Below, one piece after another: positions 17,683 through 27,003 of a stretch of 27,050 nt of DNA; position 1 is the first letter of the stretch; every line of letters starts with the position of its first letter. The position numbers and the translations under genes are program-made. The notes beneath the pieces are model-generated. The model was not told the origin of the DNA. It saw only the letters and a list, made by a program, of their open reading frames with translations, and did not search any database. Origin of the DNA: a virus; the IMG/VR virus record IMGVR_UViG_3300037849_000047, positions 1-27,050 of that record; one strand, given 5' to 3'.

Positions 17683-18807
17683 CTAGATGCCGAGCATGCT
17701 CGCGACGGCGAAAGTCTGCCGAAGCACGGTCCCCATGCTGCCGCCGGTGATCTTCTGTTTCCAAGAAGACAGGTCGGGGATGAGGCGGTGGGTCCGCATC
17801 TTTTCGTTGAATGCGCAGAACCCGGTCTGCTGGCCGCGCACGCTGGTGCAGATCAGCTGCATGAAGTTGCCGCCGAGCACGCCCTGGGGGTTCGCGGTGG
17901 ACTGCGCCTGATACTGGATCGCGTCGACGATGCGAAGGTTCGGGATCTGCTTCAGCAGGTCGCTAACGTTCACGTCGAACGAGTTGGTCGCAGTGATCGC
18001 GAACTTCGATGTCGGCGCCAGTGCCAGGACGAACGGGGATTCCTGGTTGATGTTGCCGCCCGACTGCACGATCAACTGGATTACCAGCGACTGGATGTCC
18101 AGGTAGATCTCGTTCGGCGTCGCCGTGATGACGCCGTTCGTGATCCACAGGTTGTTGCCGAACGATTTCGGCCCTGGGATGAGCGATGCGGTCAGGTTCG
18201 GGTCGTTGAGAAGGCCGTAGTTCTGCAGCCCCTTGACGCCAAAGAAGTAGATCTGGTTCTGGTAGCGGTTGAGCGCCCACGCGGCCGCCGCGTTGAGCTC
18301 GCTGACCCAGTTGATCTTCGCCAGGCCGGCGACGGCCAGTTCCTTCTCGCCGTAGCCAAGGATGGTCTGGAACAGGTACGGCTGCCTCTGGGGAAATCCG
18401 ATGTTGGTGCTGACCATCCCGCTGGTCGAATAATCGTCGTAGCTCGAGACCTGGCCGGTATGCTCGGCGACCGGGAAGATGACGGTCGACAGCGTCCAGT
18501 CGCCCTTCTTGACCTCGCCGAGGATCTCCGCCGCTTTCAGGGGCGAGAACAGGATCTCGTAGATCGTCGGGTCGATCATGGTCGACAGCATTACGGGGAT
18601 GCCGGTGTTCTGCGTGGTGGTCAGCAGCGGCTGGGCGTCCTGCGCCATGTAGGGCGCCAGGCCCTGGTCCATGGCGAGGTCCCAGTCGTGCTTCCACCCC
18701 TCGGGGATGTACATGCGGGCGTTCTCGAACAACGCTCCGTTCTTCTCGTAGCGCGGCTTGTCGGCCATGAACTGAGAGCGCGCTTCCTGTACGTTCGTGC
18801 TGAACAT
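17683..18807 (-). CDS. Major capsid protein (DUF2184)
   Basis: A 374-residue major capsid protein of the DUF2184 class, HK97 fold. Typical segments are the N-terminal AQPLLTTTQNTGIPVMLSTM (about 58-77), the YDDYSTSGMVSTN E-loop-like stretch, LGYGEKELAVAGLAKINWVS and SELNAAAAWALNRYQNQIYF, and the C-terminal GGSMGTVLRQTFAVASMLGI. The family has no separate delta domain; scaffolding probably comes from the C-terminal part of the protease fusion. AAAGG precedes the ATG. Its leader contains two hairpins, one a full intrinsic terminator, which is unusual before such a highly expressed gene. A hairpin also follows the gene. Confidence 0.92.
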   Translation of the reverse strand: MFSTNVQEARSQFMADKPRYEKNGALFENARMYIPEGWKHDWDLAMDQGLAPYMAQDAQPLLTTTQNTGIPVMLSTMIDPTIYEILFSPLKAAEILGEVKKGDWTLSTVIFPVAEHTGQVSSYDDYSTSGMVSTNIGFPQRQPYLFQTILGYGEKELAVAGLAKINWVSELNAAAAWALNRYQNQIYFFGVKGLQNYGLLNDPNLTASLIPGPKSFGNNLWITNGVITATPNEIYLDIQSLVIQLIVQSGGNINQESPFVLALAPTSKFAITATNSFDVNVSDLLKQIPNLRIVDAIQYQAQSTANPQGVLGGNFMQLICTSVRGQQTGFCAFNEKMRTHRLIPDLSSWKQKITGGSMGTVLRQTFAVASMLGI

Positions 18808-18824
18808 CGGTGTGTGCCTTTCAA

Positions 18825-18856
18825 AACAAAAAAGGCGCTCACGAGGAGGCGCCCTT
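18825..18856 (-). terminator. Intrinsic terminator in the leader of the major capsid gene
   Basis: On the minus strand AAGGGCGC / GCGCCTTT forms an 8-bp stem (one G-T pair) around a 10-base loop, followed by TTTTTTGTTTT. This is a canonical intrinsic terminator. It ends only 17 nt before the capsid ATG, leaving no room for a new promoter, so capsid expression needs read-through, antitermination or use of the hairpin as a processing site. Confidence 0.7.
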
Positions 18857-18895
18857 GGGGGTTGGTGATGGGTGGTGGTGCTGGTGATCGCGGAA

Positions 18896-19975: not shown

Positions 19976-22549
19976 TTACGCGCTGCCGATGCGGTCGAGG
20001 TTCTTGGCGATGTTGGGAAGACGCTTGGCGAAGTCGGCCTTGCTGCCGGCGCCGCCGCTGCTATCCATCGCGATCGTGGTGTTGCGCTTGCCGCTGTCGG
20101 GGGACGACAGATTGTCGAACATGAACTTCAGCGCGTCGGCCTTCACGCCGGCGAGCGGCTTGGTGTCCTTGCCCGCTGCCTGGATGGCGTGGAGATAGAC
20201 GCCCTCGACGCTGTCGAATGCCATGCTTGAGAGTTCGCCCACTCGGGGTCGGACGTGATCCTTGGCAGCGTAGATCGCCTGCTGGAGCTCGCGCTCCTGC
20301 TTGATAGCTGCCTGCACCTTCTTGTCGGTCGCTGCGTCCATGGCCTTCTTGTCCTCCTTCTCAGCCTCATCCTTGGCCTTCTTGTCGCGCGCGCCGGCGC
20401 TGGGCTTCTCGTCCTTCGCCTTCTTGTCCTTGGCCTTCTTGTCTTTCGAGAATTCCAGCTTTTTCTTATCTTCGTCATCCGGATCGCCGTCTTCAGCGGT
20501 CTCCTCGACGTCCTCATCCTCGGCGGATTCGGACTCGTTGTCCTCGTCCTCTTCGTTCTTGTCCTCGTCCTCGGCCGTCTTCTCCTTGTCCTTCGGCGGC
20601 CATTCGTCTTCCGCCTTGGGCATTCCGCCTTCGATCATGTCGAGCACCGCGTCGAGGCCTGCCTTGATGCTGCCATCCTGGGCGAACTTCGGCTGCAGTT
20701 TGCCCTTGACGAGCTCCCGCACGTAAGCGGCCAGGACCGGCCGCTTCGCCTTCCAATTGCTCGCGCGGATGTTGCGCAGTCCCTTCGTCAGATCGATGCT
20801 CGCGTCCATCGCAAGCATGGGCTGCAGGTGCGCCATCAGCGCGCCATAGGCGATGCTGGCGGTAGAGGACATCAGAACTCTTTTGGTCATGGTAAAAGCC
20901 TCCTTCGGGATGAGTGGGTTTTTGGAATCGCCTACAACTACGTCCGGACCAGCCCTACCGTCGGAAACCAGGGCGACGTGATTTCCAACGATGTCTCGCA
21001 TCACTCCGTCATAGCGAGTGCCGTTATAGGAGCCTGGAGTCATGTCGGCGCGGTAGCGGTACGCGCTCGATAGCTCTTTCTTCTTCTCGCTCTTAACCGC
21101 CTTGATGCCTTTGTCGGCCCAAATGACGAGGCTGTTCTTCAGGTAGGTCCCGTCGAACTCTGCGTCCGTTCCGGTCGAGCCGATCACGTGCTCGGGCTTG
21201 TGGTCCGCAGCACTAACCGGGACGTGCTCATCGAGCACCGGTTTGTTGTTGAACGTGCTGGCCGCCTTCTTGAGCTCATCCGGGTCCCGAAACAGGTAGT
21301 AAATCTTGTCGGCCGTGAGCCCCAGCGTCTTCCACTGTGGGATCTCGTCGCCGCGGTACGGGTTGACCGCGGCCTTGCTGATATTGCTGACCTCGACGTG
21401 CAGGTGGCCGTCGGGGCTCTCGGTCCGGTTCCCCTTCGCAGGCGCAGCATAGTCGAACGCCAGGCCGTGCCGGTCGATCATCAGGCCGAACGGCGCCCGG
21501 TCGAGCGCCAGCAGCTCGTCCATAGCGCCCATCCCGGGCTTCATGGGCGCGTGCGTCATGGCGGCGACGCCCGAACCCCCACACGCCGAGCACATGTCAC
21601 CGTGGACGTTCCCAGCCCCGCCGCAGGCCCCACAGAGGCCGTCCTGGGCGTGCTTGAGCTTCTTGGCGCTCCCGACGATCGGCGGGAACCCGGAGTTGGC
21701 CGCGGTGGTAGCCTGGACCTGGTCCTGCGCGTGCCGAGGTTTCTTGCCGGTGCTCTTGATCCCGCGGATGCGAAATGCGCCGTCCCCGTCGATGAAGAAC
21801 TTCTTCTCGTGGTCTGAATCACCGGGGTCGACCACCACGTCGAATGAGTGCCCGATCGACGAGGTCTCCTGCAGGTGCGCCAGCAGGCGCTTGAGCTGGT
21901 TCTCGTCGTCGTCGAGGTCGATGACGATCTGCTCGTCCTTGGCGATCTCCTCGCCGCGCGCCCAGCCCGCGAAGTTCTTGTGCAGCGTCGCCCAGTCCTC
22001 TTCACTCATGTCGTCGGTGGCGCCGAGGTCCGTGCTCAGGCGCTCCTTGACCGCGGGGTGGATCGGCGACGGCAGTTCGTGCAGCCCGAACCAGCCGGCG
22101 CCGGTGTGCTCGTTGTTCAGCTTCGGCGAGAACTTCTCGGCGACCGGCTTCGCGAAGGTGTGGAACGTCTTGCCCGTGGGGGTCGACCGACGATCCATCA
22201 GCCGCTTCGGCCCCTGCGGCGAGGTGTTGCCGAGCTCCTCGGCGTTCTCCCGATCGGCCGCCTCCTCGGCGCTCTCGCCCGGATCCCCATTGCCGCCCGG
22301 GAGCGACCAGTGGCCCGCGAAGTTCTCCTCCTTGGCTGACCTGCGCAGCAGCAGGACGTGCCCGTCCGGGGCGACGTGCACCGTGCCGGCGACTATAGCT
22401 CCCTTGGGCAGCACTCGCGCGTCAGGCATCTCGCCGTTTTCGTCGGCCGCGACGAACTCCTCGCCCACGGCCTTCGGGATCCCTAGGCGCGACTTTCCCT
22501 CCGCGGCGGCATACATCGCGCGCTTTTGCCGTGGTGTTTTGGCTGGCAT
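19976..22549 (-). CDS. Nudix / zinc-ribbon / DUF2213 prohead protease / scaffold-like fusion
   Basis: The start is the ATG at 22549, 4 nt after the previous stop, giving 857 residues. Residues about 50-175 form a Nudix domain with a near-complete box at 86-107: G-x5-E-x7-RE-x2-EELG, in GESAEEAADRENAEELG. Residues 306-327 are a DnaJ-like zinc ribbon with two CxxCGGxG knuckles (C306, C309, C320, C323). Residues about 345-545 are DUF2213, the prohead protease family: ISKAAVNPYRGDEIP, TFNNKPVLDEHVPV and GNHVALVSDGRAGPDVV. Residues 645-745 are a highly charged Lys/Asp/Glu repeat, then helices suited to scaffolding. DUF2213 proteins usually lack the Nudix part. It likely templates and matures the capsid; the Nudix substrate is unknown. 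Confidence 0.85.
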   Translation of the reverse strand: MPAKTPRQKRAMYAAAEGKSRLGIPKAVGEEFVAADENGEMPDARVLPKGAIVAGTVHVAPDGHVLLLRRSAKEENFAGHWSLPGGNGDPGESAEEAADRENAEELGNTSPQGPKRLMDRRSTPTGKTFHTFAKPVAEKFSPKLNNEHTGAGWFGLHELPSPIHPAVKERLSTDLGATDDMSEEDWATLHKNFAGWARGEEIAKDEQIVIDLDDDENQLKRLLAHLQETSSIGHSFDVVVDPGDSDHEKKFFIDGDGAFRIRGIKSTGKKPRHAQDQVQATTAANSGFPPIVGSAKKLKHAQDGLCGACGGAGNVHGDMCSACGGSGVAAMTHAPMKPGMGAMDELLALDRAPFGLMIDRHGLAFDYAAPAKGNRTESPDGHLHVEVSNISKAAVNPYRGDEIPQWKTLGLTADKIYYLFRDPDELKKAASTFNNKPVLDEHVPVSAADHKPEHVIGSTGTDAEFDGTYLKNSLVIWADKGIKAVKSEKKKELSSAYRYRADMTPGSYNGTRYDGVMRDIVGNHVALVSDGRAGPDVVVGDSKNPLIPKEAFTMTKRVLMSSTASIAYGALMAHLQPMLAMDASIDLTKGLRNIRASNWKAKRPVLAAYVRELVKGKLQPKFAQDGSIKAGLDAVLDMIEGGMPKAEDEWPPKDKEKTAEDEDKNEEDEDNESESAEDEDVEETAEDGDPDDEDKKKLEFSKDKKAKDKKAKDEKPSAGARDKKAKDEAEKEDKKAMDAATDKKVQAAIKQERELQQAIYAAKDHVRPRVGELSSMAFDSVEGVYLHAIQAAGKDTKPLAGVKADALKFMFDNLSSPDSGKRNTTIAMDSSGGAGSKADFAKRLPNIAKNLDRIGSA
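20320..20620 (-). repeat. Low-complexity charged repeat inside the protease fusion
   Basis: DNA encoding residues about 645-745 of the fusion consists of degenerate repeats for KDKKAKD and DEDxxEEDE units (on the plus strand, recurring ttcttgtcctt and cctcgtcctc). This is coding low-complexity sequence, acidic first and then lysine-rich, and probably unstructured. Confidence 0.6.
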
Positions 22550-22553
22550 GGTG

Positions 22554-22859
22554 TCAGCGCATCTCGCCGCTGGTGATGAAACCATGCCAGAGGCCGCCGG
22601 CGCTCCCGTCGATCGACGGCATCACGGTCAGCGTCGCGAAATCCGCCGCTTCGATCCCGCCGGCGATCGACCACGCGATGCCGGGCTTGCAGCTCTGGAC
22701 GTGGTCGGTGTCGAATAGCTCCCACTGGTCCCGAGTCGACGGCGAGGGGATGGCGAAGCAGCTCTGGCGCCACTTCGGGTCAGCGGGGCTCACGAAGGTG
22801 AAGCCGACGCGCCGGCCGTCCTTCATGATCCACTTCGGGTCGAGGTCGAGAAGCTTCAT
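22554..22859 (-). CDS. DUF6527-like small protein (third copy)
   Basis: A 101-residue protein from the ATG at 22859, preceded by GAGAGG with 8-nt spacing. A GTG three codons earlier is possible but has a poorer site. The second half has ATLTVMPSIDGSAGGLWHGF (75-94) and ITSGEM, resembling the TFSPS...HGFI.dG core of DUF6527 proteins. Aromatic residues are frequent (DPKW twice). It has two cysteines (C34, C57) but no CxxC pair, unlike the other copies. It sits directly after the small RNA terminator and 4 nt before the protease fusion. Function unknown; the family is common in phages. Confidence 0.6.
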   Translation of the reverse strand: MKLLDLDPKWIMKDGRRVGFTFVSPADPKWRQSCFAIPSPSTRDQWELFDTDHVQSCKPGIAWSIAGGIEAADFATLTVMPSIDGSAGGLWHGFITSGEMR

Positions 22860-22873
22860 AAGGGCCACCTCTC

Positions 22874-22906
22874 AAAAGAAAAAGGCCCCAGTTTCCTGAG
22901 GCCTTT
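22874..22906 (-). terminator. Intrinsic terminator with GAAA tetraloop
   Basis: On the minus strand AAAGGCCTCAG, loop GAAA, CTGGGGCCTTT forms an 11-bp stem with one G-T pair, followed by a T-rich tract (TTCTTTT). It is one of the strongest intrinsic-terminator signatures in the window. It ends the proposed small RNA and lies just 15 nt before the ATG of the next gene. Confidence 0.8.
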
Positions 22907-23053
22907 CCTCGTCTGGCAGACTTTGTCGCCAGACCTTCATTGAGGGCATTCGCCCTCCTGAAAATGTACGCTCCCTCATTATCGCTCGCGAAGCGATGTC
23001 CCTGGAACGTTACTCGGCGGGACCGACGACCCAGGCTGCAGGCTCTGGTAGGG
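22874..23053 (-). ncRNA. Candidate free-standing structured small RNA, about 180 nt
   Basis: No coding frame spans this region, but it is dense in exact pairings. From the 5' end: CUCCCU (23055-23050) pairs with AGGGAG (22976-22971), closing a junction that holds CCUGG/CCAGG (23035-23031 with 23005-23001) capped by UCGG/CCGA, and AUCGCU/AGCGAU (22997-22981). Then come GAGGGC-GAAU-GCCCUC (22957-22942), GUCUGGC/GCCAGAC (22934-22911) and the terminator hairpin. A sigma70-like promoter lies just upstream. GGUCCC/GGGAC offers an alternative fold. It does not match tRNA, tmRNA, RNase P, SRP, 6S or riboswitch cores I can recall. Function unknown; roles in packaging, regulation or attenuation are all open. 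Confidence 0.6.
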
Positions 23054-23058
23054 AGAAT

Positions 23059-23087
23059 TCTATAGTTGGCGGATCCTGAGAAATCAA
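23059..23087 (-). promoter_or_regulatory. Sigma70-like promoter for the small RNA
   Basis: On the minus strand TTGATT (23087-23082) and TATAGA (23064-23059) are separated by exactly 17 nt; each matches four of six consensus bases. The predicted start, about 23053, coincides with the 5' strand of the closing stem of the structured region. The agreement of promoter, start and fold supports a separate transcription unit. Confidence 0.5.
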
Positions 23088-23212
23088 TCGTTGGCGTCAC
23101 GAACACCGAAGGCTACCCGCTTCAGGCAGGTCGACTGCCGATTTAACGACCACTCCGACCTCTGGATCCGGACCCTCTATGCCGTCTAGCCGGGCGTCCC
23201 CGGCCGCTCAAC
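23088..23212 (-). other. Gene-free stretch with two hairpins, upstream of the small RNA promoter
   Basis: About 125 bases after the 75-residue gene contain no credible gene. Two perfect hairpins are visible: GCCGGG-GACG-CCCGGC (23204-23189), directly after the stop codon and without a U-tract, and GGCAG-TCGAC-CTGCC (23139-23125). A competing GGTCG/CGACC pairing also exists. A CGGATCC hexamer-plus-one occurs twice in this neighbourhood. It may be the processed 3' end of the accessory message. Confidence 0.45.
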
Positions 23213-25026: not shown

Positions 25027-25334
25027 GAGAAGTCCTCGCCCTTGTCGACTGGTATCGGCGGCATGGCCACGATGTCCGATCGGCCATGCCAGCTGTCCGC
25101 GCAGAACTGGATCATGCCGTCGGTGATGAAGTAGTGGCAGACCACCTCAACACCAACCACTTCGGCCCCCATGGCGACGAACGTCTGCTTGAAGCTCGGC
25201 GTGAACAGCGGCCGCGCGAAGTTGCCGTTGAACTGCCAGCTGTCAGGCAGCGGGTGCAGGCGCTCGCACGCCGGGCACCAGTGATGCCAGCCGCCAACTG
25301 AAGCGCGAACGATGAGCGGATCGGCCTGTTTCAT
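25023..25334 (-). CDS. DUF6527-like protein (first copy)
   Basis: A 103-residue protein. The ATG at 25334 is preferred because it overlaps the GIY-YIG stop (ATGA) and follows GAAAGAAG; upstream in-frame ATGs lie inside the endonuclease gene. C20-x2-C23 (HHWCPACERLH) looks like half a zinc site. FTPSFKQTF (44-52) and CHYFITDGMIQF (66-77) are the DUF6527 core, followed by WHGRSDIVAMPPIP. The family is widespread in phages next to head genes but has no established role. Nearby paralogs lie at 24527 and 22554. Confidence 0.72.
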   Translation of the reverse strand: MKQADPLIVRASVGGWHHWCPACERLHPLPDSWQFNGNFARPLFTPSFKQTFVAMGAEVVGVEVVCHYFITDGMIQFCADSWHGRSDIVAMPPIPVDKGEDFS

Positions 25335-25993
25335 GACTTCTTTCTCGCCCATGTGGCAAGCTTGGCTTGTCGGATACGTTCGCAAGTTTCTGGCGATCGC
25401 TTCAATCCTCGGCCAGCAATTCCTATTTTTGCCCGGGTCTCTGCCGATAGCACTCTTTTAGGTCTGGCAGCAAGCGCCTCCGGCGAGAACTTAAATCCGG
25501 ACTTAGCGGTGCTGATCTTCAACCGCACCGATGGATGCTCCATTGCGGACTTCGTCGCTGCACTTATCCTAGACCGCCTCTCAGGAGAGATGGGCTTTCC
25601 TCTCAACGCAGCCGATCTCTTTGCATTGGATGCTGGCGTTCGCACCAGAGCGCGACTGGCATCAGCTATCTTAACCAAAGCTTCAGCACCATGGCGGTTT
25701 CCAAGCATCGGATTGAAGTCGCCTCCAAGACCGACGTTGTAGCCGAATCTTCGGTCAGTAGTTCGAAATGCAGCAATCGCCTTAATTTCCAGTTCGTGGA
25801 TGTAATCCATCGAACCGATGACAAGAGTTCGCATTCTAGCTTCGTTGTACTTAGCAATGGCTGCACAAATTGGCCGTTTTAATCTCTTCGCATCCGACAG
25901 ATGGTCGCGCCATCTAACTTCCGCCGTTCGGCCTGTGATACCGAAATAACGCTTACCATTTGGAAATTCGATGACGTAGAGCAGATAGGACAT
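25331..25993 (-). CDS. Free-standing GIY-YIG homing endonuclease with NUMOD3 motifs
   Basis: 220 residues from the ATG at 25993, 2 nt after the MuF stop. The GIY-YIG core reads LYVIEFPNGKRYFGITGR (5-22); R28 in RWRDHL, E67 in IHELEIKAI and N86 in GYNVGLGGD are the conserved Arg, catalytic Glu and Asn. The C-terminal half has NUMOD3-type DNA-binding repeats: GKPISPERRSRIS (132-144), GFKFSPEALAARP, LSAETRAKIGIAG and GLKRSPETCERIRQAK. The gene is visibly AT-richer than its neighbours, a sign of recent arrival. Seg/F-type freestanding endonucleases promote their own spread and that of flanking genes. Its last codons provide the ribosome site for the DUF6527 gene. Confidence 0.88.
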   Translation of the reverse strand: MSYLLYVIEFPNGKRYFGITGRTAEVRWRDHLSDAKRLKRPICAAIAKYNEARMRTLVIGSMDYIHELEIKAIAAFRTTDRRFGYNVGLGGDFNPMLGNRHGAEALVKIADASRALVRTPASNAKRSAALRGKPISPERRSRISAATKSAMEHPSVRLKISTAKSGFKFSPEALAARPKRVLSAETRAKIGIAGRGLKRSPETCERIRQAKLATWARKKS

Positions 25994-25995
25994 TG

Positions 25996-27003
25996 CTAGC
26001 TGAAACCTTTGATTACCGAGATGCTGACGCACCTACAATTAATCAAAGTTCCTGGCCAGATCCACTTCTTTTCATGTGGATCGAACCATCCTTTTTTCAC
26101 GTCAAAAAGCTTCCCGTTGTTCGCGAGGTGGGTCGGCCTAGGCACCTTGCCGCCGCCGCTGTGCCGCCACTTCGCCTGCGTGATGCCGAGCTCGACCTGG
26201 CGCACACGGTGCATATTCGCGGAAGCCTTGTTGTTCTGATCTCTGGCGATTAGCGCCGCCCGCCGCTTCGTGATCGGATACCGCGCTTCAAGCTCCTTCG
26301 CCAGCGTCCCCAGGTCTCGCCCCGCCGAGACCGACCGCATCACGAGGCCCTCGATGTCCGAGAAATACTCGCTGGCGATCGACCGGATCAGACCGACGTT
26401 CTCAGCGGTGGTCGCCTCGACCACATCCCTCATCGCCGGCGTCATCTGGAACTTCACCGAGAAGCCGCCCTGGCGCAGGATCGACCGCATTGACTTGTCC
26501 GTGCGCTGCGATACCGCCTTGGCGAAGTAATTTGCCAACTTCGGCGCCGCGGCGTCGATGTTCGCCGTCCACCGGTCCGCCATCTGCCTCACGGCCTTCG
26601 ACATCACGACCGCCGGCGAATGCCTCATGGCGATCTTGGCCACGTCCAGCGCTGCCTCGCGCGTCTTCCAGGTGCGCACGGCGCCGTCCGAGCGCCTCAG
26701 TACGATCCCGTCGACGTAGGCCCGCCATGTGCCGTTCTCCGTCAGCCTCGCGTCGGGCCCGCTCAGGCTCGGCTTTGGCGAGTATCGATCCGCTGGCGCA
26801 TCGTCCATCGCCATCGCTGGCGGGTTGTTGCGATAGGCAGACTTCAGCCAATAGACGGTCGAGTCGTTCATCTCCTCGATCAGGCGCAGCAGCCGAGCCC
26901 TGTACTCGACCTGGATCCCGAGATTGGGGTGCAGCGGACGGAGCTTGATCTCCTTGCCGCGCGAAGGAAGCACTTCGGTAGCTTGGAAAGGAGATCGTGC
27001 CAT
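25996..27003 (-). CDS. MuF-like minor head/head morphogenesis protein
   Basis: About 335 residues from the ATG at 27003; a GTG two codons earlier (27009) is an alternative. The middle (RQMADRWTANIDAAAPKLAN, then VEATTAENVGLIRSIASEYF) and the C-terminal part (RYPITKRRAALIARDQNNKA, TQAKWRHSGGGKVPRPTHLA, GTLINCRCVSISVIKG) are classic Mu gpF features, including the ARDQ...N and inCRC motifs. Residues about 85-125 hold a small insert (GTWRAYVDGIVLRRSDGAVR). MuF proteins bind at the portal inside the head and often travel with the DNA. A portal gene is expected just outside the window. This is the first gene of the window in transcription order. Confidence 0.88.
   Translation of the reverse strand: MARSPFQATEVLPSRGKEIKLRPLHPNLGIQVEYRARLLRLIEEMNDSTVYWLKSAYRNNPPAMAMDDAPADRYSPKPSLSGPDARLTENGTWRAYVDGIVLRRSDGAVRTWKTREAALDVAKIAMRHSPAVVMSKAVRQMADRWTANIDAAAPKLANYFAKAVSQRTDKSMRSILRQGGFSVKFQMTPAMRDVVEATTAENVGLIRSIASEYFSDIEGLVMRSVSAGRDLGTLAKELEARYPITKRRAALIARDQNNKASANMHRVRQVELGITQAKWRHSGGGKVPRPTHLANNGKLFDVKKGWFDPHEKKWIWPGTLINCRCVSISVIKGFS

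Follow-up and report, generated by a model that had tools for sequence, protein, structure and literature searches.

A putative terminator-gated leader and a neighbouring conserved RNA element among the head genes of a contractile-tailed phage

Our analysis points to a cis-acting, terminator-gated 5′ leader at positions 23087-22868 of the minus strand of a phage sequence, ahead of the transcription unit of p101 and the head protease (Table 1); we put the probability of this reading at roughly 0.55. The DNA analysed, hereafter the window, is the 27,050-base virus record IMGVR_UViG_3300037849_000047, and the same DNA is contained at 100% identity in the 74-kb IMG/VR record IMGVR_UViG_3300033547_000001. 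Promoter-like, hairpin, terminator and ribosome-binding elements were all observed, in the layout of an attenuator leader (promoter-like site, terminator, p101 ATG at 22859), and the motif that joins the U-tract to the Shine-Dalgarno sequence recurs in the phage. From these elements we infer a transcription start and read-through at the terminator, which would act as a gate that is either regulated or merely leaky. Adjoining this RNA immediately upstream lies a second structured element, R1, which was not among the features of an earlier, sequence-only reading of this DNA and probably represents a new RNA motif of phages.

Table 1. Features of the leader region, the related capsid-gene leader and the members of the R1 element.
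Feature	Position	Strand	Basis or remark
R1, conserved three-way-junction element	23090..23212	-	pattern scans, covariance model
Sigma70-like promoter candidate TTGATT-17-TATAGA	23059..23087	-	read directly; weight-matrix rank
Hairpin array of the leader	22908..23052	-	predicted fold
Intrinsic terminator, 11-12 bp stem, GAAA loop, U-tract TTTTTCTTTT	22874..22907	-	predicted fold
Shine-Dalgarno GAGAGG of p101	22868..22873	-	read directly; motif recurs in capsid leaders
p101, DUF6527-like protein (phrog_34484)	22554..22859	-	first gene behind the leader
NUDIX-DUF2213 head maturation protease	19976..22585	-	second gene behind the leader
Capsid-gene leader, terminator/U-tract/SD arrangement	18807..18860	-	sequence comparison; module at 18833
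R1 member, L104	148-260		
R1 member, L102	2388-2481	-	same record as L032
R1 member, L098	174-258	-	same element as in L105
R1 member, L244	5679-5767	-	
R1 member, L241	7770-7889		
R1 member, L108	11036-11150		
R1 member, L003	9116-9224		left out of model training

The minus-strand genes of the window are of the contractile-tailed phage type and include a tail sheath, a major capsid protein, a minor head protein, a NUDIX-DUF2213 head maturation protease and a Mu-F-like head morphogenesis protein; a TerL terminase further upstream is seen in the 74-kb record. The candidate stretch (22874-23087) lies among the capsid genes in a 353-base non-coding gap, bordered by the stop codon of p75 (23215-23213) and the ATG of p101 (22859-22857). 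Upstream of the gap is a cassette of a GNAT protein and p75 that this phage does not share with its relatives. The stretch had been described as free of genes, and this held: a 108-aa open reading frame that crosses it was rejected as coding because it has no relatives, with no PHROG match and no match better than E 0.8 in tblastn against phages. A tRNA or tmRNA was likewise rejected, as none was found. The protease carries its NUDIX domain fused at the N-terminus, and in several relatives NUDIX-like sequence adjoins the protease gene or lies inside it. Twelve other viral contigs carry p101 homologues, set in unrelated gene neighbourhoods as a moron gene would be. A GIY-YIG/NUMOD3 homing endonuclease-like gene (25331-26032, minus strand) is also found within the head cluster and has a relative in L032.

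The intrinsic terminator, proposed earlier as an 11-bp stem capped by GAAA, was confirmed. It consists of a G+C-rich hairpin (22907-22896 paired with 22891-22880) followed by a U-tract (22883-22874), and at -19.4 kcal/mol it outranks every other hairpin-plus-T site of the window on both strands. A simple scan overlooked it, probably because the extension of the stem consumes bases of the U-tract. The U-tract passes straight into the Shine-Dalgarno sequence of p101 (TTTTTCTTTTGAGAGG), 8 nt ahead of the ATG, which leaves no room for a promoter between the two.

The major capsid gene is preceded by the same arrangement. In this phage and its two closest relatives (L003 and L032) a terminator lies 18-28 nt ahead of the capsid start codon, and the motif TTTTTNTTTTGN{0,3}AGG occurs exactly four times in 13 phage records, namely in both leaders of this phage and in the capsid leaders of L003 and L032. 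The reversed pattern, used as a control, had zero occurrences in the 13 records. In the capsid leader the terminator is predicted to compete with a more stable hairpin (-14 to -21 kcal/mol) that covers the Shine-Dalgarno sequence; the alternative hairpins are conserved in the three phages (at about 18860-18807 on the minus strand of the window, about 7945-8001 in L003 and about 7955-8001 in L032), and by these predictions the capsid leader looks like a two-state switch. More terminators were seen just ahead of the minor head protein gene, at about -1137 in L003 and about -1107 in L032 relative to the capsid start; such placements suggest that the clade commonly puts terminators ahead of head genes. 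As the capsid genes must be expressed, terminators in front of them must be crossed and would be gates rather than walls.

Both hexamers of the sigma70-like promoter given in the sequence-only reading are present on the minus strand, TTGATT at 23087-23082 and TATAGA at 23064-23059 with a spacer of 17 nt, and the predicted start falls near 23052. A weight matrix ranked this site third among 135,090 minus-strand placements, the top one being the overlapping TTGATT-19-TAGAAT. The site is nonetheless weak: the hexamers agree with the consensus at only 8 of 12 positions and lack the final T of the -10 element, a simple consensus scan did not call the site, and 10% of shuffles of the surrounding 380 nt reached its score. 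Downstream of the terminator, as far as the end of the capsid gene, no other promoter-like site scored above 7.4, and the one with that score overlies the U-tract and the start codon of p101. These searches used sigma70-type scoring, which other types of host or phage promoter would escape.

To the RNA at 22870-23053 a fold of -83.4 kcal/mol is assigned (z = -4.9), and the z-score is still -3.7 when the terminator is removed. In a scan of 150 minus-strand segments (mean z -0.38, sd 1.29) this 180-nt stretch was the most structured, with z of about -5.2, the next independent segment reaching -3.6. The five exact helices reported earlier are all in the sequence, and the predicted hairpin array includes AUCGCUU/GAGCGAU, GAGGGC/GCCCUC and GUCUGGC/GCCAGAC. 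The three-way junction also reported stood in part. Its closing stem (CUCCCU/AGGGAG) is sub-optimal in the full RNA, where it has a probability of about 0.24 and costs +1.8 kcal/mol, but it belongs to the predicted optimum of the nascent RNA, as long as the 3′ arm of the terminator is absent. Among possible antiterminators that could form before this arm is made we found only a 4-bp GAGG/CCUC alternative; a strong competitor like that of the capsid leader is not seen here. The leader also contains a small open reading frame (MPSMKVWRQSLPDEERPQETGAFFF; 22949-22872, minus strand, 25 codons) with a good AGGAGG Shine-Dalgarno sequence, which passes through the terminator, stops at the p101 ribosome-binding site and has no homologue. 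As it ends in FFF and gave a weak match to the Rfam family Phe_leader (E 0.26), a Phe-type leader peptide was considered and rejected, because its Phe codons are simply the U-tract.

Searches for relatives gave nothing in support of conservation of the leader fold. No homologue of 22874-23087 was found beyond the same phage by blastn against phages, and blastn matches in plasmids cover the terminator and not the rest of the RNA. It was likewise absent from 80 capsid-related viral loci, from 16 whole records and from the DNA upstream of the 12 p101 homologues, which are preceded by other sequence. A search with exact sub-patterns showed that L096 and L097 have one hairpin string in common with it, and nothing more. 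The earlier remark that this layout is not known from any described class agrees with Rfam, where the stretch had no match at gathering scores; two sub-threshold matches, ctRNA_p42d (29.9 bits against a gathering score of 50) and BjrC68 (25.6 bits against 39), cover the 3′ hairpins and the terminator only, and what they share with the leader is a generic terminator shape. We found no description of the leader RNA or of R1 in a literature search.

In the scheme that we favour, RNA would start at the sigma70-like promoter and fold into the hairpin array, and most transcripts would stop at the terminator, leaving a stable attenuated RNA of ~175 nt as a by-product. The fraction that reads through would go directly into p101 and the head genes, since the U-tract continues into the ribosome-binding site of p101. 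The gate might be controlled by antitermination or, more speculatively, by translation of the 25-codon reading frame coupled to read-through. The sequence-only reading had instead proposed a separate transcript of about 180 nt. An RNA running from promoter to terminator is plausible. The observations of that reading were largely right and its interpretation partly so. Read as a stand-alone phage sRNA of ~175 nt acting in trans on host or phage targets by pairing, it would have its own promoter-like site, a structured body and a terminator within one intergenic stretch that holds no reading frame with relatives. Yet the fusion of the terminator to the ribosome-binding site of the next gene, together with the same motif before the capsid gene, makes a leader acting in cis more likely than an independent sRNA; moreover, the RNA is not conserved in relatives, and a terminator-gated leader would yield an identical short RNA. 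We therefore regard a trans-acting sRNA as unlikely.

The weakness of the promoter, whose score one local shuffle in ten attained, opens another reading, in which nothing starts locally: the terminator would end transcripts of the upstream GNAT/p75 cassette, or would be a hairpin that stabilises mRNA at a 3′ or 5′ end, and the other hairpins would have no role. That this cassette is peculiar to the phage among its relatives fits such a reading. Against it, the fold remains exceptionally stable when the terminator is left out, and no other promoter is visible for the head genes downstream; we give this reading about as little weight as the trans-acting sRNA. The same promoter scores count against the terminator-gated leader, as do a hairpin array without a homologue and the competing hairpin over the Shine-Dalgarno sequence by which the capsid leader differs, so that the two leaders need not work alike. 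Should the leader act in this way, the phage group would set the level of head-gene output through terminators fused directly to ribosome-binding sites; such a scheme is simple, can be tested and offers an alternative to separate late promoters.

The lead to R1 was a 30-base blastn match between 23217-23188 of the window and the sequence that immediately follows the capsid gene in L032. In the window, helix P1 (23212-23205 paired with 23096-23090) begins right behind the stop codon of p75 and is followed by P2 (23204-23189), and the candidate -35 hexamer begins two bases past the end of the element. Pattern scans and a covariance model together gave eight independent members (Table 1). The model was built from seven loci, and the L003 element, left out of training, was recovered at E 3e-11. 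P1 has 5-8 bp, is closed by ..GCG/CGC.. and contains one bulged base in several members; P2 is GCCGGG-GACG-CCCGGC and leads into a short linker; P3, of variable length, is opened by GACG/CGU, and GA and the returning strand of P1 follow. In the seven-row alignment 93.8% of the cells are paired, compared with 85.1% after shuffling and at most 47% after sliding, and five pairs are changed on both sides; in L003, P2 is replaced by a compensated GCCUC/GAGGC. R1 thus shows the compensatory changes of a conserved structured RNA. Its total length ranges from 85 to 140 nt in steps that are not multiples of three, which is evidence against a coding origin.

No similar family was found in Rfam, and R1 was not found in isolated phages. 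Candidate matches in plasmids were rejected by the covariance model. It was found in none of 385 genomes sampled from one bacterial class, although few candidates were scored per genome, which makes this weak evidence. The P2-core pattern matched at least 119 bacterial stretches, and among the matches listed none had, on inspection, the closing stem together with the GTGA that mark true members. A looser pattern returned 115 chance matches, mostly coding, in addition to L003, and a weak model match in L386 was rejected on inspection. Other capsid relatives lack R1, so its distribution is patchy. In L104, L241 and L108, R1 is followed by a long non-coding stretch; these stretches are less structured than the leader RNA, and the one in L104 showed no sequence in common with that RNA.

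All eight members lie within or beside packaging or head genes and on their strand, an orientation that lends indirect support to transcription of R1 as RNA. R1 is found ahead of TerS-TerL (L384, L385), between a weak TerL match and the portal gene (L381), upstream of TerL and portal (L382), upstream of an integrase and TerS (L383), directly behind the capsid gene (L032, L003) and, in the window, ahead of p101 and the protease; in L244 and L098 it resembles a 5′ leader preceding a gene. There is one copy per record, the exception being a borderline second match (E 0.09) in G004. R1 precedes a terminator in the window and in L104, and several members have no terminator close behind them. By sequence, this late-operon placement appears to fit an operon RNA with a role in antitermination, processing or translation more readily than an RNA for packaging. 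The wider idea that R1 is a new functional class of phage RNA, a compact three-way junction present once per genome in the packaging/head operon, and that the leader behind it belongs to the same device for late-gene control or packaging, we hold tentatively, at less than even odds. If functional, R1 would link a previously undescribed RNA motif to the genes of virion assembly.

The phi29 packaging RNA (pRNA) contains a three-way junction, and hardly any RNA is known to take part in packaging or head assembly outside the phi29 group. This pRNA is a phage RNA of 120-174 nt that is essential for packaging; it is located near the genome end and is an inherent and unique feature of phi29-like phages (PMC11476376). 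The loose likeness to it suggested in the sequence-only reading found no support as kinship. R1 shares with it the three-way junction, occurs in essentially one copy per record and always sits among terminase, portal or capsid genes on their strand. Unlike phi29, however, this phage and at least six other R1-bearing phages have TerL-type terminases, and instead of the phi29 packaging ATPase and its group we find here a sheathed tail and Mu-F-like head genes. With no pRNA match in Rfam, the leader-like position of R1 in two members, and nothing in favour of such a role for the leader RNA itself, a pRNA-like function in packaging or in the prohead is highly improbable for either element. The antitermination RNAs HK022 put and lambda nut, which precede terminators that transcription has to pass, resemble R1 as structured RNAs in a phage operon; they differ in that R1 has no sequence or Rfam match to them and that several of its members have no close terminator. 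The leader itself compares best with phage transcription attenuators and partial intergenic terminators, such as those between the structural genes of phiX174. In both cases a terminator stands in a structural-gene operon upstream of the next ribosome-binding site, and the downstream genes require read-through; the leader described here, read from its DNA, differs in that its U-tract is fused to the Shine-Dalgarno sequence and is preceded by its own promoter-like site and hairpin array.
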